This document shows, one piece after another, positions 873 through 54,251 of a DNA stretch of 64,000 nt; positions within the stretch are counted from its first letter, which is position 1, and each line of letters begins with the position of its first letter. The notes beneath the pieces are model-generated. The model ran no database searches. It was not told where the DNA came from and saw only the letters and a list, made by a program, of their open reading frames with translations. A program made the position numbers and the translations under genes. The stretch lies in contig NZ_CP018099.1 of the NCBI RefSeq assembly GCF_001886815.1, positions 3,408,501 to 3,472,500 on the forward strand, written 5' to 3'. This DNA is from Caldithrix abyssi DSM 13497 (GTDB lineage Bacteria > Calditrichota > Calditrichia > Calditrichales > Calditrichaceae).

Positions 873-2756
873 CTACTTGTTGAAAGGGTTCGTACGTTTT
901 TTAAGTTTTAAGTGTTCCACAAAAACATCCTGAAAACCAGGATCGGAGGCCAGTTCTACAAATTGAACGCTCTGGCTAACAGATTTCAATTCCTCAAACC
1001 GCTGCCCATTCAGGATGGTTTGCCTAAGCCCCTCCAGAGAGGCATTGCCAATGAATTTAATTCGCTCTCCGGAAACGGCAGGAATGGCGCCCAGATGAAT
1101 TAAACTTTCGGGGCGAATAAAATTTCCGAAGGCTCCGGCCACAAAAATCCGTTCGATCGCCGCTGGTTCAACCTGCAACTGCCGACAAAGCAGACACCAG
1201 GCGCTGCTGATTGCCCCGATGGCCAATTGAAATTCCCGCACATCCTGCTGGGTTAAAAAGATGTCCTGAAGCGCGCCTTCATCTGTGGAGACCAATAAAA
1301 TTTGCGCAAGATTATTCTCCGCAAGCTGTATGCGCTGGCGCCAGAAGGCCCTGGGATGGTCGGCATCGATTAAGCCGTCTTCGGTGATGACCTTTTCTTC
1401 TGTCAGATAATGAATGATGTGAAACAAACCGCTGCCGCAAATTCCAGCCGGCGGTTCGTTTTCAATGGTTTGCCAGCGCATTCGATCTCCGTCGCGGCGA
1501 ATCTCGATCAACGCGCCGGGAACGGCCCGCATTCCCTGAGAAATGTTTGCCCCCTCCAGGGCGGGGCCTGCCGGCGCCGATGCCGCAAGCGCCTCCGTCC
1601 CTTTTTGCAGGATCACTTCGCAGTTGGTTCCGATATCAATCAACAGGGCGGGGCCCTTCTCTCGGCCGGGCCTAACCGGAGCGGCCATCATTCCAGCCAG
1701 CGCATCGCCGCCCACAAAACCGCCGATCAGCGGAAAGCTAAAGACCGCGGGCAGGGTCAGCCTTCCCGGAAACAGGTTAAAAAAGAACTGCAAAAGCGCC
1801 TGGGAAACGGTGGGCTTAAACGGAAACAATCCCACATATCTGGGCGTAATTCCCCAGAATATTTGCGTCATTACCGTATTTCCGGCGAGCATCAGCAGGT
1901 AAATATTGGCGGGCGAAATTTGATGCTGCAGGCAAAGCTGTTCAATCACTTCGGTAAGTTTTTCATGAATTGCCTGTTTTAACGCGCTGAGCCGTTCAGC
2001 CCCCTGAGAGGCGTAACCGATTCTGGAGATCAAATCGGCGCCAAAAGAAATTTGCGGATTGGGGAAAACGGCATAATCCAGAGTCTGCCCTGTCCACAAA
2101 TCGATGAGCAAAAGGCCTACCGTGGTTGTGCCCAGGTCAAGAGCCAGGGCAAAATTGCTGCTCTGCGTGTCGCCCGCTTCCACGTCGATCACCTGCGTCT
2201 GAAACAGAGTAACGGTCACCTCGCCCTGCCGCTGACGGATGGCAGAAGGGATCTTACTCAAAACCGCATGATAAATCGTAACTTCTGGTAATCCCGCCTC
2301 CTGCTCGAGATGATTTTTAAGTAAGTCAGCGTCGCTTTTTTCATTAAGTAAGCGGTCTAATGGCAGCTTAACATGCAATTTACGGACTAAAGGAGCGAAT
2401 TCTGTTTGCTTGATTTGCGGCCGAGCGGATACGGCAAACGATTCTAATTTCAAAGAGTCGGGGACGAGCACCTGTGCATCGGCGCTGACTCTGGTCATGC
2501 ACGCCAGGCGAACGCCTTTTTGCACTTCCTGGCTGGTTAAAAGGGTTTCTTCGATAATGACGGGCTGTGGCGCGCCCTTTACAAATTTGATCTTACATTT
2601 GCCGCAAATTCCGGCGCCGCCGCACGGCAACTGTAGCCGAATTCCGGCCCCGGCCAGAGCCTGCGCGAACACGCTGTTTTTTTTAACGGCTATTTCCACC
2701 TTCTCCGGCAGGAGTTTGAGAAAAACGATTCTTTCTGCGGCCATAATGTCCGACAT
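873..2756 (-). CDS. RACo-like corrinoid-protein reductive activator (2Fe-2S ferredoxin + ASKHA domain, DUF4445)
   Basis: 627 aa. The N-terminal about 100 residues form a plant-type 2Fe-2S ferredoxin domain: C-x5-C-x2-C (CGGAGICGKC), with the fourth Cys in RLAC. After a linker, the C-terminal half is an ASKHA-type ATPase with phosphate loops DLGTTT and DIGTNCE, then GICGSG and FVAGAFGNF. This is the architecture of RACo/RamA proteins, which use ATP hydrolysis to drive reduction of inactive Co(II) corrinoid proteins back to Co(I). Some relatives serve B12-dependent methionine synthase that lacks its own reactivation domain. No corrinoid protein or methyltransferase is in this window, so the client is unknown. 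A second ATG (MAAER) four codons in is an alternative start. It lies 12 bp downstream of the histidine kinase gene. Confidence 0.85.
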   Translation of the reverse strand: MSDIMAAERIVFLKLLPEKVEIAVKKNSVFAQALAGAGIRLQLPCGGAGICGKCKIKFVKGAPQPVIIEETLLTSQEVQKGVRLACMTRVSADAQVLVPDSLKLESFAVSARPQIKQTEFAPLVRKLHVKLPLDRLLNEKSDADLLKNHLEQEAGLPEVTIYHAVLSKIPSAIRQRQGEVTVTLFQTQVIDVEAGDTQSSNFALALDLGTTTVGLLLIDLWTGQTLDYAVFPNPQISFGADLISRIGYASQGAERLSALKQAIHEKLTEVIEQLCLQHQISPANIYLLMLAGNTVMTQIFWGITPRYVGLFPFKPTVSQALLQFFFNLFPGRLTLPAVFSFPLIGGFVGGDALAGMMAAPVRPGREKGPALLIDIGTNCEVILQKGTEALAASAPAGPALEGANISQGMRAVPGALIEIRRDGDRMRWQTIENEPPAGICGSGLFHIIHYLTEEKVITEDGLIDADHPRAFWRQRIQLAENNLAQILLVSTDEGALQDIFLTQQDVREFQLAIGAISSAWCLLCRQLQVEPAAIERIFVAGAFGNFIRPESLIHLGAIPAVSGERIKFIGNASLEGLRQTILNGQRFEELKSVSQSVQFVELASDPGFQDVFVEHLKLKKRTNPFNK

Positions 2757-2768
2757 GTTTTATTGGTC

Positions 2769-5711
2769 TTAATCTGTTGGCAGGCTTTCTCTGGAGTAAT
2801 TTAAAACTTTTCTGACACGCCTGACCAGTTCCTGCAATTTAAATGGTTTTTGAACAAATTCAACGCTGTTTAAATCTGCGTCTTTTAAAATTTCAACATT
2901 GGAATAGCCGGAGATAAAAATAAATTTAACAAGAGGATTGGTTTTTAAAATTCGCAGATGGAACTCGATACCGTTTACGCGCGGCATTACAATATCGGAA
3001 ACGATCAAATCGATCTGGTCTGCGCTGAGAGCAAAAATTTCCAGCGCTTCGGCGCCGTCCATGGCTTCCAGCACCCGATAGCCGTAATTATGTAATGTTT
3101 CCACGATCACCTGGCGCACCGTGGCGTCATCTTCTACCACCAGAATGGTTTCGTTTCCGCGCAGGTCATCAAACAAGATTAAATCGTCATCGTCATCTTT
3201 TTCCAGGATCACTTCCATCTTGTTGATCGTCGGGAAATAGATGGAAAAAGTGGTGCCCTGCCCCACCTGACTTTGCACGGTAATGTAACCATTGGCCTGC
3301 TTAACAATACCGTAAACGGTGGCCAGTCCCAGGCCGGTTCCCATGCCTTTTTCTTTGGTGGTAAAAAACGGTTCGAAAATATGTTTCAGGGTTTCTTTTT
3401 CGATTCCCACGCCCGTATCGGAGATGGTTAAAAGCACGTACTCTCCTTCTCTGAACTCCGGACGCTTGGCGCAATAAGCGGCATCCAGCGTCACATTGCG
3501 CGTTTCCAGGAAAAGCTTACCGCCGCGCGGCATGGCATCTTTGGCGTTAACGGCCATGTTTAAAATGATTTGTTCAATCTTGTTTTCGTCAAAACGAATG
3601 GCGCGCAAATCACTGGACAGACGCGTAACAATTTCAATATGCTCACCGATAATGCGCTGCACCATGGAGATCATGCCTTTGATCAACTGGTTCAGGTTGA
3701 TGCTCCGCGTCTGGAACACCTGTTTGCGGCTGAATGCCAGCAACTGCGAGGTTAAATTGGAAGCTTTTTCGCCTGCCTGACGAATCTGGGCGATGTATTT
3801 GAACAACGGATCATCGGCCTTCATGCGCCGCGACAGCATATCGGCATAGCCGTTAATCACGGTTAAAATATTGTTGAAATCGTGCGCAATGCCGCCGGCC
3901 AGCATGCCAATGGCTTCCATCTTTTGCGAGTGCAGAAACTGCTCTTCGAGCTCTTTTTGGTGCGTTACGTCAATTTGCAGCCCCCACATCCATTGCAGCG
4001 CTCCGTCTTCAACATGGCCAAAATAAGAGTTATTGAAGTAGCTTTGTTTTTTATCGCCAGCCTTTTCCACGGTCTCTTTTAATTCCATGCGAAAGTCGTT
4101 TTGTACAAATTCTGTAAGGTTTTTCAGGCTCTTTTGATGGTCGATGCTGAAAACCGAAGGCGGCTGCCCGATAATCTCTTTTGCGCTTTTTTTACGGTAC
4201 ATCTTAACCAGAGCGTCGTTCACTTCAACAAATCTGCCTTCGTAAAAGATTTTTTTGGCGATCTCCCTGGCAGGCAATTTAACGGAAATTGGATTTTTGA
4301 ATTCAACATACCAGATGCCTACCAGCGAATTCTGGATAAAATTCTGATATTGTAAGTTTTTCTTAAGCAGGGCGCGTTGCGTTTCTTTAATTTTCGTCAG
4401 GTCTTTGATAATAACCTGCACATATTTTTGCCCTCTGAGATCCAGTAATTCCAGGCGGGCTTCGGCCTCGATTTTTTGCCTGTCTTTGCTAAAAAAAGTG
4501 CAGTTAAACGATTTTTTGCGACCGGCATAAACGATTTCTAAAATATTTTTCAGAGTTTTTTCTTTATTTTGTGAACTGCCGGTTGTTCGAATTTTATGGC
4601 AAATATCGACAAAAGCTTTTCCCACTAAATTCTTTTTTTCGACTTTTAATAAGTTTAACGCCGTCTGGTTGCAATCAATGATTTTCGTCCGATCAAGTAA
4701 AAAGATTGCATCGCTGGCGTTTTCGAACAAAGCCCGGTATTTAATGTTCGACTTTAAAATTTCTTCTTCAAAATGCTTTTTTTGGGAGATATCACGCGTA
4801 ACCGACAGGATAACACGTTGATCTTCGATATAAAAAGTGTGGGCGTTAATTTCCACAAAAACTTCTCGCCCGTCTTTTGTTAGATTAACGGTTTCGAGTG
4901 ACAACCGCCCGCGCGAAATTAATTGCTGCATCAAATCGAGAATGCGTTCTCTTTCCAGCTTCGGCTTCAGGTCTAAAAAAGTCATCATTCTTAGCTCGCT
5001 TAACGAATAACCGGTTAACTCGCAGGCGGCCCGGTTGGCTTCAATACACCTTCCCGGGGTTAAATCTGAGTTCAGCTTCCACAGAAAGATGGCGTCGTTG
5101 GCTTTATTAAAAATCTCATAGAATAAATGGGGATATTTCTCCAGCAGGACATTGTTTTTTCTCTCTGGCGCAGCGGAACTCTCCACTTTTAAAAAATAGA
5201 TATTGGAATGCGGGCTTTCCGCTGATCTGGTTTGTTCTGCAGATGGCGCAACTTTATGCCCGGCCTTCAGCGTTGCAATCTGTTTAAAAGCGTGATTGAT
5301 GGATTCTATTAGTTGCGGAGCGTAATTCTTGATGGTACCCAGATAGGCCTTGTGCGATCCATTGGTTATAATATCCTTACCTTGATAAATGGTGTGCATT
5401 CGACTCCCGCGCAGCGCCACACAGGCTACAAAGTCGGTTTCGAAATCTCTTTCTATTAAATACTCTTCATTATCCAGCTGAATTTCCACCAGCCCGGTAA
5501 ATGTTCCGATGGCTTTGTTTTCCGATCGAAATCGTTTTTTTTGCTCTTCGGTGAAACCAAAAATAATACCAAAAACGGCTTTATAAATTAGGAGAGCGGT
5601 CTGCTCTTTCGCATCAAATAAAACCGGGGAAAAATTCGCAGCATCGAAATTAAAACGAGCTTTTTCCGCTACACCTTTAAATCCGGTAATTTCTACGGAT
5701 TTAATCCTCAT
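2769..5711 (-). CDS. Hybrid PAS sensor histidine kinase with a degenerate YhaN/SbcC-like N-terminal domain
   Basis: 980 aa, no evident membrane segment, so probably cytoplasmic. Residues 1-150 resemble the head of YhaN/SbcC-type ATPases ([13 protein letters not shown] start, a LFGF-like FGIIFGF segment, then a strand ending YLIERDF). Where those proteins have GPNEAGKST, this one has DAKEQTALL, so the Walker A is lost. Then come about three PAS domains (roughly 197-315, 325-440, 445-585); HisKA with the phosphorylatable His in AHDFNN (about 610); HATPase_c with NAKDAM, DTGVGI and GTGLGL; and a C-terminal receiver (about 855-970) with acceptor Asp in IVSDIVMP and a conserved KPF lysine. An AAAGGA ribosome site lies 6 nt before the ATG. 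The receiver and kinase imply a phosphorelay, but no DNA-binding partner is adjacent. Kinase call is certain; the N-terminal relationship is inferred by eye. Confidence 0.9.
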
Positions 5712-5961
5712 ATAATCCTTTCCATGGATTTAAAGGTCGCTGATTAAAACATCCATCCATGAAATGTAAAAAAACGTTCCTTCGTTTTTAACCCAAAGGT
5801 CAATTTAATCCTTCGTCATTTTCTTTTTAAATATAAGAACTTTATGCATAAATTTCTACTTAAACTGATTGAAAAATTTTAATTTAAATATTTTTGCCTC
5901 TTTTAAATTTTTAAGTTATTTTATTAGATTATAATTTTTGAAACTGAAAAGGCAGGATTTT

Positions 5962-6594
5962 ATGCAGATTAAACCTAAAGAGTTTCTTTATGTGCCCAAC
6001 CTTCTCAGTCTCCTTCGCCTGCTCCTGATATTACCGATTGCTTATTATATTCGATTCGATACGCCTTTTGCACACAACATGGTGATTATTCTTGTTTTGA
6101 TTGCCGCCAGCACCGATTTTTTGGATGGATTCTTTAGCCGGCGTCTCAATCAGGTTACCGATCTGGGGCAAATTCTGGATCCGCTTGCAGATAAGATCGA
6201 TCTTGGGATTGGCTTGATATTGCTGGTGATCTACCGTGATTTTCCCCTGCCGCTGGCGGTTTATTTAATTTATCGAGATATTCTAATCCTTATCCTGGGC
6301 GCCGCCTGCGCAAAAAAACTGGGGCATCCCACCCCGGCAAATTTCTGGGGCAAGTTAAATACCACCATTGTTTCGATAGCGGGCATCCTGTATTTAACGG
6401 GCTGGGCTCCGCTTGTGGCTAAAATAGCCATTGTTGCCAGTTACGGGGTCATTCTGGTTTCCGGTATTTCCTATGCGTTGCTCGGACAAAAAATTCTGTT
6501 CACAAATCGCTGGTCAAAGCTGATTTACTGGCTGGTTTTGTTTTTACTCACACTTTTTGTTGTGCTGAGTACCATTAATTACAAATTTGTTTAA
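5962..6594 (+). CDS. CDP-alcohol phosphatidyltransferase (PgsA-like)
   Basis: 210 aa integral membrane enzyme of phospholipid synthesis. It carries the CDP-alcohol phosphotransferase signature as DFLDGFFSRR, then G-x3-D-x3-D as GQILDPLADK. The second Ala-Arg position is Ser-Arg here. Several hydrophobic helices flank the motif and run to the C-terminus. The LDPLADK form is typical of phosphatidylglycerophosphate synthase, but cardiolipin-synthase-type relatives share it, so the exact headgroup is open. I chose the ATG at 5962 because AAGGCAGG precedes it; a TTG eight codons upstream is open but lacks such a site. The stop is 1 bp before the glycerophosphodiesterase gene, giving a two-gene lipid operon. 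Confidence 0.8.
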   Translation: MQIKPKEFLYVPNLLSLLRLLLILPIAYYIRFDTPFAHNMVIILVLIAASTDFLDGFFSRRLNQVTDLGQILDPLADKIDLGIGLILLVIYRDFPLPLAVYLIYRDILILILGAACAKKLGHPTPANFWGKLNTTIVSIAGILYLTGWAPLVAKIAIVASYGVILVSGISYALLGQKILFTNRWSKLIYWLVLFLLTLFVVLSTINYKFV

Positions 6595-6595
6595 A

Positions 6596-7300
6596 ATGAA
6601 TGAATCAAAACCCTTAATCATCGCCCATCGCGGCGCGAAAAATTTAGCGCCCGAAAACACCATTAAGGCTTGCGAATTGGCCCTGGAACACGGCGCTTCG
6701 GCTCTGGAAGTGGATTTACGGATGTGTGGCAGCGGCGAAATCGTTCTCTTTCATGACTATTGGTTGTGGCGACATTTCCGAAAAATTAAAGCGGTACGTA
6801 AAAGTCCGTTAAAAGAACTCAAGCAACTGCGTTTTAATCACATCGCCTACCGATACCAGGACAATATTTGCACTCTTTCCGAATTTCTGGCCCATTTTAA
6901 AAACACCGTGCCCATTAATCTTGATATTAAAAATCTATTTACCAACAATGTGCTGTTAATTCGGGCCATCGTTCACGATGTTAAACAGCACGACATGCAA
7001 GACCAGATATGGCTTTCGTCTTTTAGTCCCAATTTTTTACGCGTGATTAAAAAAGAATTCCCGGAAATCCGCACCGGCTATCTCTTTCGCAATTTTTCCC
7101 TGGTTCATCGTTACATCGATAAAATCGTTAAAGCCGACGCCTGGCATCCGCACTACCGCCTGGTTAGCGAACGCTTTTTGCAGATTTCCCGCCGTCTAAA
7201 AAAAGAAGTTTACATCTGGACGATTAAAGACGAACCGGTCTTTAAAGAAATGGTTAACCAGCATTTTAATGGCATCATCACCGATGTGCTGATCAAATAA
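6596..7300 (+). CDS. Glycerophosphodiester phosphodiesterase family protein (GDPD)
   Basis: 234 aa, no signal peptide. The catalytic HRG-x5-PEN motif appears as HRGAKNLAPENT at the N-terminus, followed by the metal ligands E-x-D in LEVDLR and the second histidine in LFHDYW. The C-terminus has the TIM-barrel closing strand VYIWTI. Enzymes of this family hydrolyse glycerophosphodiesters to glycerol-3-phosphate and an alcohol; related enzymes act on lysophospholipids. The ATG used here follows the pgsA-like stop by one base; a TTG three codons upstream would overlap that gene. Its position suggests recycling of lipid headgroups together with the upstream enzyme. Confidence 0.85.
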   Translation: MNESKPLIIAHRGAKNLAPENTIKACELALEHGASALEVDLRMCGSGEIVLFHDYWLWRHFRKIKAVRKSPLKELKQLRFNHIAYRYQDNICTLSEFLAHFKNTVPINLDIKNLFTNNVLLIRAIVHDVKQHDMQDQIWLSSFSPNFLRVIKKEFPEIRTGYLFRNFSLVHRYIDKIVKADAWHPHYRLVSERFLQISRRLKKEVYIWTIKDEPVFKEMVNQHFNGIITDVLIK

Positions 7301-7365
7301 TTAGCGGAAACTTTTACCGGCAGTTTAAATTTACTAAACAATAGGACTGAAAATTTGAATGGATC

Positions 7366-7950
7366 ATGTTTGTAAAACGCAGCAATTACATTCGAACACT
7401 GCAAATAAGTTTTATTATTGTACTCCTTGCTCTGGTGGTGTTATTCCGGCTGTTTCCACGATTCAATCGCATTTCATATACGCTGCCGGCCATTCAGATT
7501 GAAGAGCTGAAAATTCTGGAAATTCCCAGAACCGTCCAGCTTAAAAAGGCTTCGCCTCCGCCCTTAAAACCGGCGATCCCGGTGGCAGGCGAAGAGCTGG
7601 AGATGCTGGAAGAAGTGCCCATTGAATCTTCTGAACATCTGACGGCTAAGGGCCAGGTCTTGATGGGCGACGCGCCCTTAAGCGAAGACGATTTGCCCTT
7701 CATGCCCCGCCAGATCATAGAAGTTCTGCCTCAGGTGGATGATCTGCAGCTTAAAGGCAGTGTGGTTTTAAAGCTTTTAATTGACAAAAACGGCCGCATG
7801 AAAGACTACCGTGTGCTTTCCAATTCCACGCAAAATCCGTTAGCCGTGCGCAGAGTGTTGGCGGCCGCGCGCAAATCGCGCTGGGAAACCATCAGCCTGA
7901 ACCAGAACAAGGTAGAATACTGGATCACCAAAACGTATCAGTTTAAATAA
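7366..7950 (+). CDS. TonB family energy-transducer-like protein
   Basis: 194 aa. One N-terminal membrane anchor (about residues 13-30, ISFIIVLLALVVLF) is followed by a proline-rich and acidic periplasmic stretch (KKASPPPLKPAIP) and a C-terminal TonB-type domain: LKGSVVLKLLIDKNGRMKDYRVL then a helix and a final beta strand. This matches TonB, which couples the inner-membrane proton motive force to outer-membrane transporters, but it is short for the family and no ExbB/ExbD or TonB-dependent receptor is nearby. It could be one of several TonB paralogues or a structural periplasm-spanning protein. It follows the GDPD gene by 65 bp and converges on ybjQ. Confidence 0.7.
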   Translation: MFVKRSNYIRTLQISFIIVLLALVVLFRLFPRFNRISYTLPAIQIEELKILEIPRTVQLKKASPPPLKPAIPVAGEELEMLEEVPIESSEHLTAKGQVLMGDAPLSEDDLPFMPRQIIEVLPQVDDLQLKGSVVLKLLIDKNGRMKDYRVLSNSTQNPLAVRRVLAAARKSRWETISLNQNKVEYWITKTYQFK

Positions 7951-8058
7951 AGTTTTAACCTTCCCCGCCTGAGGCTCATTCGGACTTTATCCAAAAAATA
8001 CAAATCTTTGATTCCCTAACCCGCGGCGAACGCTGGCAAAGTTGTCTTTTTTGCCCTG

Positions 8059-8379
8059 TTACTTTTTTCTAAGTTTAACGGCCGTACCGTAAACCAGAAT
8101 TTCAGCCGCATTGCTCATAATGTAAGAAGTCGAAAAACGCACGTTAATCACAGCGTCTGCCCCACGGCTTGCAGCCATGGCCTTCATGCGGTCCAGGGCC
8201 TGTTCTCTGGATTCCGCCAGTAGTTTGGTGTATTCTTCAATTTCTCCGCCGATCAGGCCTTTTAAAACAGCTAAAATATCTCTGCCAATATTACGCGCAC
8301 GAATCGTGTTTCCTTCGACCACGCCTAAAATTTCCACAATCTCATTTGCCGGAATTTCACTTGCTGTTGTAATGATCAT
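8059..8379 (-). CDS. ybjQ: YbjQ family protein (UPF0145, heavy-metal-binding domain fold)
   Basis: 106 aa, full length for the family. The features are the N-terminal TTASEIPANEIVEILG strand, the ARNIGRDILAVLKGLIGGEIEEYT segment, and the closing GADAVINVRFSTS strand followed by a YGTAVKL end. Family members form pentamers; their biochemical role is not established. The start codon overlaps the anti-sigma stop by 4 bp, so it is translationally coupled as the third gene of the sigma/anti-sigma operon, hinting at a role in the envelope or stress response that this sigma factor controls. Confidence 0.9.
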   Translation of the reverse strand: MIITTASEIPANEIVEILGVVEGNTIRARNIGRDILAVLKGLIGGEIEEYTKLLAESREQALDRMKAMAASRGADAVINVRFSTSYIMSNAAEILVYGTAVKLRKK

Positions 8380-8822
8380 CTAATTATCCTCCGATATTTG
8401 TCATGACGCCGAACCATTAACTTTTCTCGCAAAACAGAGACAAACAATACGATAAAACCAAACATCAAAAGTCCCATACCAATCCTCAAAACAAGCGGTT
8501 GAGAGGCATCTAAAAAGAACTCTTTCAAAACTTCGTAGCCTGCAAATGCCAATACAATAATTGCCCCCAGACTAAAAAGAATCCAGCCGATCCCCCGCTC
8601 AATACGATTATAAACCTGTTGCCAGTACTCGTCCCAGTACATTTCGGGCAGGGCGCGGAACTTCATTTTTTTGCTTTCCTCCTTTAGTTGATTAAAAGAT
8701 GGCCATTCTGCCTGACAGTCAGGGCAGCTATTTAAATGTTCTAAAAACTCGGCCTTTTGTTTCTCATCTAATTCGCCGTCCAGATAGCCCATCATCAAAA
8801 AACGTGCCTGTTCACATTTCAT
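8376..8822 (-). CDS. Membrane anti-sigma factor with zinc-finger (ZAS/zf-HC2) domain
   Basis: 148 aa. The N-terminus has the zinc-binding anti-sigma pattern: Cys3, then HLNSCPDC (H-x3-C-x2-C) at about residues 29-36. Two hydrophobic segments follow (about 78-98 and 112-132), putting the sigma-binding domain in the cytoplasm of an inner-membrane protein. Its ATG overlaps the sigma factor stop by 4 bp, which would keep the two proteins in fixed ratio. It should sequester the upstream ECF sigma until an envelope or redox signal releases it. No regulated-proteolysis gene is in this operon. Confidence 0.85.
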   Translation of the reverse strand: MKCEQARFLMMGYLDGELDEKQKAEFLEHLNSCPDCQAEWPSFNQLKEESKKMKFRALPEMYWDEYWQQVYNRIERGIGWILFSLGAIIVLAFAGYEVLKEFFLDASQPLVLRIGMGLLMFGFIVLFVSVLREKLMVRRHDKYRRIIR

Positions 8823-9394
8823 AAATCGCCCTCAAATTGTTTTAGCTTTTTTAACAAACGCTTTCGGGCATAGTAAAGTCTTGACATCACACTGCCTATG
8901 GGTATTTGCAATGCATCGGCTATTTCCTGATACGAAAATTCATTAAATTCCTTCAAAACAATTATTTCCCGATCCTTCTCATCCAGCAGCGACAGAGCCT
9001 GCCAGATAATTTCGGCCCGTTCGTTTTTTTCAAAAACTTCGTCCGGAAAAGTTCCCTCCGCCTGAACCTGACGCTCCATGTCATCATCCATGGGCTGTTT
9101 TCGCCTGTGATGATTCACAAAATTAATGCAAAGGTTTTTTAAAATCCGATAAAACCAGCTGTAAAACGGCCGCCCGGGATCAAAATCCGCCAGCGATCGG
9201 TACGCCCGGTAAAACGCCTCCTGCGACAAATCCATCGCATCCTCGTGGTTTTTGACAAACATCAAGGCCATGTAATAGGCGCGTTCTTTGTATCGCTCAA
9301 CAATGATCCGATACTTTTCTTTATCGCCTTCCAGACAGGCTTCAATCGCCTGCCGATCGCTTAGTTCGCTTTCTTTTAATTCTTCTTGCATCAT
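8819..9394 (-). CDS. ECF-type RNA polymerase sigma factor
   Basis: 191 aa with sigma region 2 (NHEDAMDLSQEAFYRAYRSL, then FDPGRPFYSWFYRILKN) and region 4 (LDEKDREIIVLKEFNEFSYQEIADAL followed by SVMSRLYYARKRL). Regions 1 and 3 are missing, as expected for group IV sigma factors. It directs RNA polymerase to a stress regulon. First gene of the sigma/anti-sigma/ybjQ operon; the 479-bp region upstream presumably carries its promoter, commonly autoregulated in this family. Two consecutive ATG codons begin the gene; the first is given. Confidence 0.92.
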   Translation of the reverse strand: MMQEELKESELSDRQAIEACLEGDKEKYRIIVERYKERAYYMALMFVKNHEDAMDLSQEAFYRAYRSLADFDPGRPFYSWFYRILKNLCINFVNHHRRKQPMDDDMERQVQAEGTFPDEVFEKNERAEIIWQALSLLDEKDREIIVLKEFNEFSYQEIADALQIPIGSVMSRLYYARKRLLKKLKQFEGDL

Positions 9395-9873
9395 ATTACA
9401 ATTCTGCCATTAATTTATTCATTCGGACGGAAATGTTTTTTACTGACGAATTATCCCGCCAGAGTAAATGACTGCGCCCACATGATCACGCTCTCCAGAA
9501 AAGCGGCAGGAGGTGAGGGCTATTGTAAACTTTTCCCTATTTTTTTTAATTTTCGCTTTTGAGACACCCTCAGAAAACTTCAAAATCCAATAAGACAATC
9601 CATCCTTTAAAGGATTTTTTTACTGGAATGGTAAAAAATACCTTTTTTAAGTGAACTCAATATTAAAACATTTAAGAGATTTTACCTTTTTAAAGAGACT
9701 CCTCTCTCCACTGCGTTCCAGATGAGAAAACGGCTCATGCTCAACCTAAGCCGCACTCATTCGTACACGCTCCCCGTGACTTCTATTAGTTTTATTTGTA
9801 AATTTACGAAAATAAAATAAATTCACAAAAAAGACAATAGTTAAAGAACACAGCAAACGGAATAGGAGGTACG
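9395..9873. other. Divergent intergenic region between ECF sigma operon and SDR gene
   Basis: No credible gene. It holds a GAGACACCCT motif near 9560 that resembles, in reverse, the solo GGGTGTCTCAAAA sequence at 33566 and the ends of the MITE-like element at 37825; the palindrome ATCCTTTAAAGGAT at 9602-9615; and a roughly 50-bp sequence (about 9606-9656) that recurs near 52100. Promoters for both flanking genes must lie here, but I cannot assign them. Confidence 0.5.
9606..9656 (+). repeat. Dispersed intergenic repeat, copy 1 (see 52101-52150)
   Basis: Shares a core with 52101-52150: AGGAT, then TTACTGGAAT, an A-rich run, ATACCT, and GTGAACT in the same order and spacing. Both copies sit upstream of a plus-strand gene. 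Similarity was judged by eye. Confidence 0.5.
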
Positions 9874-14516: not shown

Positions 14517-16223
14517 GAGGCTGTTGCAAATTCAGTTTGAGTAAAATTCAAAAAATTTGTAAATTCTGGGCGACAGATAAAACAAGTAATAACAAAGGAA
14601 TTCCATGAGTTTTATTACTTATAATCGCTCACAAATGAATCTCTTTGGCTATAGTGTGGAAGATTTTGCCAGAGACGATCCAAAGAGTCGATTTGTAGTG
14701 GAGTTGGTTTCGCGCCTTGATTTAAGTGCACTTTATTCCCGTTATAGTTCACAAGGCGGTGATTCTTATGCCCCAGACATGATGCTTGCCTTATGGTTTT
14801 ATGCTTATAGTAACGGCATTACCAGCACCCGTAAGCTGGAGGAATTGTGTAAATATGATACGCGCTACATTTATATCACTGGGAATCAGCATCCGGATCA
14901 TAGTACATTAAGTCGTTTTCGCAAGGCACATTTGGATTTATTAGACCAATATTTTGTAGAGATACTTTTAATTGCCCAGGCCGAAGGCATAAGTAGTTTC
15001 AACCAGATAGCCATAGATGGCACGAAAATCAAAGCGCACAGCAGTAAGCGTCATGGCTACACTGAGGATCAATTAGACAAACGTATAGAGAAGTTAAGAG
15101 CAGAGATCAAGCAATACATGCAGCGCTGTAATTTTGTAGAACAGGGGGCCACGGATGAATTAGATTTAGAAACTCTTCGAGCGGAGAAAGAACGGCTTGA
15201 GCGCTTAGAGAAAGAGATATTAGAACGTAAAGCCCAATTGAAAGAGCGTAAGAAACAGCTCAAATCAGAACACCGTTCAAGACATCAAATAAATGTAAAA
15301 GAGCCGGATGCCCGCATGATGCCTTCGGTGGATGGACCGGGCTATAACGCACAATTAGGCGTAGATATGTCCAGTCATTTAATAGTAGCTCATGAAGTCG
15401 TAAGCCAGCCCAACGACCAGGGTCAATTCATACCGATTCAAGAACAAGTAGAGAAGAATCTTGGTTCAGATGATAAGCGATCTTACACGGCCGATTCCGG
15501 TTATCACAATAGCACAGACCTAAAAGAATTGGAAGAAAAGCAGATTGATGCCGTAATAGCCGATCCCCAGTTATCCAATCGTTCGATAAAGGAGACACCA
15601 ACCTCCAAGGAAGAATTGCAAAAAGAAGAAAGAAAACTAAAACGAAGTGATTTTGTGTATCATGAACAGGGAGATTACTATGAATGTCCGACGGGTAAGA
15701 AGCTTTTTCCAGTTGAGAGAAATAGCGAACGGATCGTATATCGTTCCAATGATTGTCAGGATTGTCCCTTAATTAATTTATGCATTTCCAGTAAAAAGAA
15801 AGTTAAGCAAATCCATCGTTCAGTTAATGAGAGTTATTGCGAACGTATGGCGAAAAAGTTACAAACTTCAGCGGCGCAGGAACGACTAAAAAAGCGTTCG
15901 GTGACAGTTGAACCTGTTTTTGGTAACTTGAAGCATAATTTAGGCTATCGTGGATTTTCCTTATCTGGTCTTAATAATGTTCGTAGTGAATTTACGTTAA
16001 TGTGTATTGGGCATAATATTAATGTTCTATTTAAAAATATGTTAGGGAAACGTTTAGCAGCGTTTATAACAGCATCACAAGAAAAAGATGATCTATTAAT
16101 TTTATTTTCAAAGAATATTTTGGCGTTTTTAATTCTATATTTTGCCCAACGCTTAAGAATGAGAAAAAATTATCAATATCGGAGAATATAAGCATTAATT
16201 CCTCCCCCCCATGCAACAGCCTC
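14517..16223 (+). mobile_element. IS1182-family insertion sequence, complete
   Basis: 1707 bp with perfect 12-bp terminal inverted repeats GAGGCTGTTGCA (14517-14528) and TGCAACAGCCTC (16212-16223). It is flanked by GTAA on both sides (14513-14516 and 16224-16227), consistent with a 4-bp target duplication. Removing the element and one GTAA restores a normal REP unit. It carries one intact transposase gene. Because the ends, ORF and duplication are intact, insertion appears recent. Confidence 0.9.
14605..16191 (+). CDS. IS1182-family transposase
   Basis: 528 aa. N-terminal DUF772-type domain (RFVVELVSRLDLSALY, then YAPDMMLALWFYAYSNGITSTRKLEE, and HPDHSTLSRFRK) followed by the DDE core: first Asp in IAIDGTKIKAHSS, second in YTADSGYHN, and the C-terminal RSVTVEPVFGNLKHNLGYRGF with the catalytic Glu. 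A central charged coiled coil (about 155-225) interrupts the core. A cysteine cluster DCQDCPLINLCISSKK is also typical. Start ATG has AAAGGAA upstream. It moves the surrounding element by cut-and-paste or copy-paste. Confidence 0.93.
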   Translation: MSFITYNRSQMNLFGYSVEDFARDDPKSRFVVELVSRLDLSALYSRYSSQGGDSYAPDMMLALWFYAYSNGITSTRKLEELCKYDTRYIYITGNQHPDHSTLSRFRKAHLDLLDQYFVEILLIAQAEGISSFNQIAIDGTKIKAHSSKRHGYTEDQLDKRIEKLRAEIKQYMQRCNFVEQGATDELDLETLRAEKERLERLEKEILERKAQLKERKKQLKSEHRSRHQINVKEPDARMMPSVDGPGYNAQLGVDMSSHLIVAHEVVSQPNDQGQFIPIQEQVEKNLGSDDKRSYTADSGYHNSTDLKELEEKQIDAVIADPQLSNRSIKETPTSKEELQKEERKLKRSDFVYHEQGDYYECPTGKKLFPVERNSERIVYRSNDCQDCPLINLCISSKKKVKQIHRSVNESYCERMAKKLQTSAAQERLKKRSVTVEPVFGNLKHNLGYRGFSLSGLNNVRSEFTLMCIGHNINVLFKNMLGKRLAAFITASQEKDDLLILFSKNILAFLILYFAQRLRMRKNYQYRRI

Positions 16224-51754: not shown

Positions 51755-52195
51755 TGGTTGTAGGCAAAAGGGGCGGAATCCAAATGACAGGCGGACGATG
51801 AAGGGGATTCTTCACTCCGCTGCTGCCCCGTTTAGAATGACAGGCTGATGTACATTCAACCATTCAACCAATTAACCATCCTCCCCCGCTCTAGAGCATA
51901 ATACTTTTAAAGAAAACATTCCAAAAAAGTCTAATATTTTTTGAAATAAAATAAATAATTCATTATCTTGAAATAGATTTAATCCTTTTAGTTTCGCCAA
52001 AAATTTTATTTTATAGAAAAGTTAGCTCTAAAAAAGGTGGCATGTCATTTCGAACGAAGAGAGAAATCTTATAACTCCAATGAAAACAATCTATTTTTTG
52101 AAGGATATTCTTACTGGAATCGCAAAAAAATACCTGTTTAGAGTGAACTTATAGAATATTTTTCATTTTTTTATAAAAATAAGATGGAGGATTTT
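51755..52195. other. Intergenic region with dispersed repeats
   Basis: No gene. Contains REP-like fragments GGGGCGGAATCC and GAATGACAGG (51769-51842), a TGTCATTTCGAACGAAG sequence (52043-52059) resembling a common intergenic repeat type, and the second copy of the 50-bp repeat at 52101-52150. The region is A+T-rich. Confidence 0.5.
52101..52150 (+). repeat. Dispersed intergenic repeat, copy 2 (see 9606-9656)
   Basis: AGGATATTC, TTACTGGAAT, A-rich run, ATACCT, GTGAACT, aligned in order with 9606-9656. The 3' end lies about 45 bp before the start of the interrupted lipoprotein gene. Confidence 0.5.
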
Positions 52196-54178
52196 ATGTT
52201 TTCTCTAAGAATGCTTATTTTAACAATTTTTTCTTTTTTTATTTTACACTCCTGTGGTGGGACAAACAAACTGGGCGTTAAAGATATCATGGAAAAGGCC
52301 AGTCTCACGGAGCTCCCAACTCAGGATGACTTTCCCGATGATGGCGGAGTCATTCTGTATGAAAATTTCTATGACCGGTTGTATCTGAATTCCAATTATG
52401 ATGTAAGAGTGGAAAAGCAAGTTCAACGGGCAATCATCTATTTTAATGATAAGGCGGAAGCGTGGACTCATCATGTAATCTACTTAGACGATCAATCCAT
52501 ATTACTGGATTTTACGGCTTACACGCAGAAACCAAATGGTGAAATCATCTATTTAACAAAAGAAGATTTACATCCAACCCACGTGAATGAAAGTTTGCAA
52601 AAGGTTTCTCACGAAAAATCTTTACGATTTGTTTTTCCTGGCGTTGAGCCAGGAGCCATTTTATACTATGGTTACACCATCAATCGCAAAGGCTTTTTTT
52701 CGGGAGATTATTGGTTTATTGAATCGGGCCTGCCTAAAATTTACAGCAGATTTAATTTTGAAATTCCGAGAATCTTTTTCCGCTACAATTATGACTGGAA
52801 TTACTCTTCTTTCAATTTTGCCATAGAAGAGCCCACGGTTTACAAAAACATTGTTAATCAAAAATCACGTAAAGATGCCAGCATCATAGTTTACTGGGAA
52901 AGGCGGGACATTCCCGCACTGGAAAAAGAGCCATTTTCACCGCCATATTTTGATATAGCCAAATATGTTAGTGTTGACCTAAAATATGATAGCTGGAATG
53001 AACTGGGTAAATTTTATTACCATTTGATTAAAGACTATGTAAACCATTCGGATCATGGGGCGGTTAAAAAACTCTCTGATGAGATTTGCGCAGGCGCTAC
53101 TACTCAGCGTGAAAAAATTGACAGAATATTTCAGTATGCGCAAAGGGAGTTTCGTTACCTGGCTTTTGATTTTGGGGAAAGCGGAATTATTCCTCATACT
53201 TTTTCGGAGATTGTCAGAAACAAATAAGGCGATTGCAAAGATATGTCCATTCTACAGATCAACCTGTTGAAAGCTCAGGGCATAAAAGCATTTCCTGCGC
53301 TGGTGGCGACAAAATCACGAACGCTGGACAAACCATTTTTTATTTCATTAAAGAATTTCGATCACATGATTGTTTATGTACAGGCAGACAGCGGCAAAGT
53401 ATTCTGGTTAGATGCTACTGGCGACATCTGTCCATTAGGTGAAATTTATCCTTCAATCGAAGGTCAGCATGCTCTGGTATTGTTTGATAAGGGCAAGGCA
53501 AAATTTAAACGTATCCCTCCAAGCAAATGTACAGATAATGTTATAAGAAGAATTGTTAACCTGACTCTGGACGGTAATCAAAAAATTTCTGGCAATGCAA
53601 AGATTACTTACCAGGGAAATCCTAATATCAGAATACGTAGCCGCTTGCGAGAAGCCAGCGACGAAGATTTTAACAAGTTTATCAAAAGCTATGTTAACTC
53701 ACATGCCGGCGATATTGCCATTTCTAATCTTCATTATGATGATCCATCTCATTTTGAACACGAAATGCATATCGAATTTGAACTCAGTAAAGATAATTTT
53801 GGCAGCAAATTAAATAAATTGGTTGTTTTTAATCCCGCTATTTTTAAGGTGGAATCAGATTTAAACAAACTGGTTGATGAAGAACGTAAACACGCCATTT
53901 ACCTTGGCACTCCTGTAACCATAGTGGACGAAGTTCATATCCGTTTTGATCCGACTCAATATAATGTGGAGGGCCTGTTTAAAACCATCAGTTGTTTTAA
54001 ACCTTTTGGTTCCTTCTTGTGTAAAGTGAAAAAGGCAGAAGAAGGTCATATTGTTTACCAGCGTACTTACAAATTATCTAAAGGTCTTATTCCGAAACAG
54101 GCCTATTCGGATTTAAAAGAGTTAGAAAAAAGTATCGCATACGCTTCAGAACAAAATTTGGCATTGAAGAAACTTTAG
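52196..54178 (+). pseudogene. DUF3857/transglutaminase-like lipoprotein interrupted by an in-frame TAA
   Basis: 660 codons plus one internal TAA at 53225-53227. Start ATG at 52196 (GGAGG 6 nt upstream) gives a lipoprotein signal with lipobox LHSC. The N-terminal 340 residues are DUF3857-like, ending TFSEIVRNK; the next in-frame codons after TAA are GDCKDMSILQINLL, exactly the transglutaminase-like NKYGDCKD motif with Tyr replaced by stop. No frameshift is needed. The rest (about 310 codons) keeps family-like sequence to the end. So it is either a single-nucleotide pseudogene (TAT or TAC to TAA), a sequencing error, or a readthrough gene. An ATG at 53243 could start a fragment that lacks the catalytic Cys. 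Confidence 0.85.
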
Positions 54179-54219
54179 ATCACACATCAGATAAAGGGGG
54201 GGGATGGTTAATAAATATG

Positions 54220-54251
54220 ATGGCTCGGGGCAGCGCCCCGGGCCATTTTTT
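54220..54251 (+). terminator. Intrinsic terminator after DUF3857 gene
   Basis: Stem ATGGCTCGGGGC / GCCCCGGGCCAT with a 3-nt loop (one mismatch), followed by TTTTTT. Confidence 0.8.

Follow-up and report, generated by a model that had tools for sequence, protein, structure and literature searches.

The window analysed here, a stretch of 64,000 nucleotides from Caldithrix abyssi DSM 13497, carries on its forward strand a gene with a stop codon inside its reading frame. Translated in one frame, positions 52196–54178 read ...SEIVRNK-stop-GDCKDMSILQ..., with the TAA at 53225–53227 as the sole interruption ahead of the terminal TAG at 54176–54178. No other defect was found in the 660 codons, in agreement with the first-pass annotation, which had described an in-frame TAA at a conserved Tyr as the only disruption. 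The features of the locus are as follows.

52196–54178, forward strand: DUF3857/transglutaminase-like, putative lipoprotein gene; 660 codons and a terminal TAG, with one in-frame TAA inside.
53225–53227, forward strand: in-frame stop, TAA, where the family has its conserved Tyr (residue 344), as read from the translation; TAT or TAC in relatives.
52196–53224, forward strand: upstream fragment of 343 amino acids, with the signal and DUF3857 and without the catalytic-type residues; the sole product to be expected of normal translation.
53228–54175, forward strand: downstream part, family-like, with Cys347, His390 and Asp406 in conserved columns.
52177–52195, forward strand: ribosome-binding region, AAGATGGAGGATTTTATG, with GGAGG 5 bases ahead of the ATG at 52196.
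52196–52258, forward strand: lipoprotein-type signal sequence, MFSLRMLILTIFSFFILHSCG, its Cys common to all nine of nine aligned homologues.
53243–53245, forward strand: first in-frame ATG past the TAA; re-initiation here would give a 311-amino-acid fragment without the signal or Cys347.

An ATG at 52184, given in the open reading frame listing, overlaps the ribosome-binding site, which makes 52196 the likelier start. Judged from its sequence, the gene product would be a lipoprotein. Positions 54196–54250, 3' of the gene, contain a run of eight G, a GC-rich inverted repeat (GGGGCAGCGCCCCGGGCC) and then T-rich sequence; together these are perhaps a terminator shared by the convergent genes.

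We compared the two parts of the gene with Pfam. The upstream fragment alone matched DUF3857 (E 2.2e-8; 34.8 bits against a curated cut-off of 24.6), and Transglut_core was found only when the frame was read through the TAA (E 4.1e-6; 27.5 bits against a cut-off of 23), consistent with the family assignment proposed in the first-pass annotation. The TAA, at residue 344, stands three residues ahead of the catalytic-type Cys347. Across 107 homologues, the column of Cys347 holds Cys in 105, the column of His390 holds His in 105, and the column of Asp406 holds Asp or Glu in all 107; we take these three residues to be the catalytic triad of the transglutaminase superfamily. The Cys, His and Asp core is obtained only by reading across the TAA, and the normally translated product has none of the three. 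Proteins of the Calditrichota and Bacteroidota that combine DUF3857 (PF12969) with Transglut_core (PF01841) share with the window gene their length (approximately 650–680 amino acids), domain order, lipoprotein-type start, YGDCKD motif, and later His and Asp. The window gene differs from them in that a TAA replaces the Tyr ahead of GDCKD, a position where a stop is absent from every relative listed. No solved relative of the protein was found by sequence at E 0.01, and a literature search on DUF3857 found the family barely mentioned.

The same codon was then compared among relatives. Tyr occupies the residue 344 column in 101 of the 107 homologues, a count that is inflated because some of these were fetched with the pattern KYGDCKDM; the remainder have Ser, His, Phe or Cys, and none has a stop. 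The genome-by-genome search set, which is free of this bias, agrees, with a sense codon, TAT or TAC, at the site. Within the genus and family, the full-length orthologues (L004, L005, L006 and L007; 46–54% identical) are uninterrupted and carry TAT or TAC at this position, as do orthologues from other groups. The disrupting stop is thus absent from the orthologues, as in a nonsense pseudogene. The orthologues align over their full length on both sides of the TAA, indicating that the split gene does not represent two chance open reading frames. These comparisons support the earlier proposals that a Tyr normally precedes GDCKD, that one base change from TAT or TAC accounts for the stop, and that the downstream half is family-like; the codon is a sense codon in every relative, and a Tyr codon (TAT or TAC) in nearly all. 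The gene offers 291 one-base routes to a stop codon, 74 of which lie at Tyr codons, the biggest share of any residue, so a stop at a Tyr is unremarkable.

The distribution of the gene indicates that its loss can be tolerated, since a close orthologue is missing in six of nine family genomes that are at least 90% complete, the genome's own included (missing in G001, G004, G005, G007, G008 and G013; metagenome-assembled genomes may miss genes). On this basis the gene looks dispensable. Its own genome also contains a divergent, intact paralogue (G000:C1:3249525; 23% identical). Comparison of the window with the short flanks of the orthologues revealed no conserved gene neighbourhood. Two homologues from a sister family (L008 in G018 and L009 in G017), approximately 30% identical and of full length, have SLNSRD or SVNSRD in place of YGDCKD, with Cys changed to Ser and His changed to Arg; from these substitutions they are likely pseudoenzymes. 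In a genome of the same order, L113 (G020:C186:72500-82332) has four tandem DUF3857-type genes at 1858–9715. Two of these each have one in-frame TAA (at approximately 4091 and 6811; mutation or error in the metagenome-assembled genome), at sites that differ from that of the window gene, and the GDC motif is missing in two of the four.

We used the divergence of the two halves of the gene to judge how old the stop is. With the tree fixed, the protein branch leading to the window gene measured 0.63 for the part upstream of the TAA and 0.64 for the downstream part, compared to 0.25 and 0.26 for its sister L004. Columns invariant in six orthologues are retained in the window gene at 60 of 68 positions upstream and 50 of 61 downstream, and the downstream changes at such columns are mostly conservative. 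The ratio of differences at codon positions 1 and 2 to those at position 3, calculated against L004, was likewise similar in the two halves (0.48 and 0.52). Because the halves are equally diverged, the downstream half cannot have been free of constraint over much of the branch. Relaxed constraint past a stop is a supporting sign of a nonsense pseudogene, expected in old ones only. These comparisons suggest that the TAA is either young or a consensus error, in keeping with the very recent event suggested in the first-pass annotation; the nearest relative is only approximately 54% identical, so the age of a mutation is loosely bounded. The window branch is approximately 2.4 to 2.6 times that of its sister in both halves, and this length might reflect some relaxation that predates the stop.

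To place the stop in its genomic background, we screened 400 kb of evenly spaced stretches together with the window (464 kb in all, GC content 45.2%) for in-frame stops, with matches judged by eye, and found at least one further case. This second gene encodes a tyrosine recombinase with a TGA at 15332–15334 of L133 (G000:C1:4850001-4870000); the TGA lies inside the catalytic domain, and the two Pfam domains matched, Phage_integrase and Phage_int_SAM_4, are otherwise complete. Split-gene alleles are therefore not unique in this genome. The published genome of C. abyssi LF13 has 4.98 Mb, 45.1% GC and 45 tRNA genes (PMC5317091). The genome sampled here encodes an M49 peptidase with the motif HEISH, and the DPP III of C. 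abyssi is reported to have HEISH (PMC5805324). The genome also encodes a tRNA-Sec, at L149 2235–2327, and a tmRNA whose tag is ANNNYALAA, at L143 1772–2156; given the tRNA-Sec, an in-frame TGA elsewhere in the genome may specify selenocysteine.

Programmed or tolerated readthrough of the UAA, inserting an amino acid and giving full-length protein if only in small amounts, would account for a downstream half without excess divergence, but recent mutation accounts for it equally, and sequence error also predicts the same. UAA is not a codon for Sec or Pyl. Systems of stop-codon recoding (suppressor tRNA, readthrough, Sec/Pyl) resemble the window gene in having an in-frame stop flanked by conserved sequence; the window gene is unlike them in that no suppressor tRNA, conserved stop, favourable (leaky) context or 3' structure was found. 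Programmed readthrough would be expected to go with a stop shared by orthologues, and none of the relatives has one at the site. Among the long open reading frames in the window, TAAG is the stop context seen most often (11 cases), and the RNA 3' of the TAA folds no better than its shuffles (z = +1.0 and +0.8), being if anything less structured. RF1 and RF2, both of which read UAA, are both encoded. Neither a UUA nor a CUA anticodon occurs among at least 43 Rfam tRNA genes above the cut-off (150 of 392 candidates scored) and the additional ARAGORN predictions, a list that is possibly one or two genes short. A pattern search for UUA-anticodon tRNAs gave 27 matches against 26 in the reversed control and yielded no suppressor tRNA; two of the matches lie inside tRNA-Lys and tRNA-Val. 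A change of genetic code was rejected, as TAA ends most of the long open reading frames in the window and both release factors are present. Programmed readthrough has no support in any test run, and we regard readthrough at this site as highly improbable. That a near-cognate tRNA decodes UAA appreciably in this thermophile, such that the TAA allele yields some full-length active lipoprotein, strikes us as more improbable still. Were readthrough of UAA shown here, it would be one of few bacterial examples, but the evidence points the other way.

Equally hard to credit is a non-catalytic role for the DUF3857 lipoprotein fragment, acting by itself or together with a downstream product of re-initiation. 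The sister-family proteins L008 and L009, in which the whole fold is kept and Cys and His are lost, suggest that a non-enzymatic role may exist in the family, and the ATG at 53243 is five codons past the TAA; but that ATG lies 3' of the Cys347 codon, the closest AAGG has its end 13 bases 5' of it (a long spacing for a ribosome-binding site), and its product would have no signal sequence. No homologue truncated at the position of residue 344 was seen. The main rival to recent mutation is a consensus error, with the cell carrying a sense codon and an intact gene. The rest of the gene, ahead of and past the TAA, looks functional, as such an error would predict, and in-frame stops in public genomes are often assembly artefacts (PMC11017572). 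Against this, the published genome has more than 110x combined coverage (81.5x Illumina and 30.6x 454), with the Illumina data used for polishing (PMC5317091), although the record containing the window may differ from the published assembly. This coverage and polishing make a substitution error possible but unlikely. Homopolymers are troublesome in 454 sequencing; the site lies outside homopolymers of that kind, and the change required is a substitution. We consider a consensus error unlikely on these grounds, while giving it appreciable weight.

We consider it probable that a nonsense mutation has recently struck this dispensable lipoprotein gene and made it an incipient pseudogene. Among the three options offered in the first-pass annotation (very recent mutation, assembly error or programmed readthrough), recent mutation fits best and programmed readthrough fails to find support. 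A single base substitution would have turned TAT or TAC, either of which encodes Tyr, into TAA, and would thereby have recently inactivated a stand-alone, dispensable gene. Translation would then end after 343 residues, giving a lipoprotein fragment with DUF3857 only; because this fragment lacks Cys347, His390 and Asp406, no transglutaminase-type activity should remain. We infer that the cell itself carries the mutation, which would then be no artefact of the consensus, and that the 343-amino-acid fragment is non-functional. Like unitary bacterial nonsense pseudogenes, the gene is dispensable and intact but for one in-frame stop; it differs from them in that further decay is not yet present, a state for which mutation and consensus error are both possible. 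The original observation is correct and the biology is ordinary. It has little significance beyond annotation, in which the gene is best flagged as disrupted and not cited as a case of recoding.
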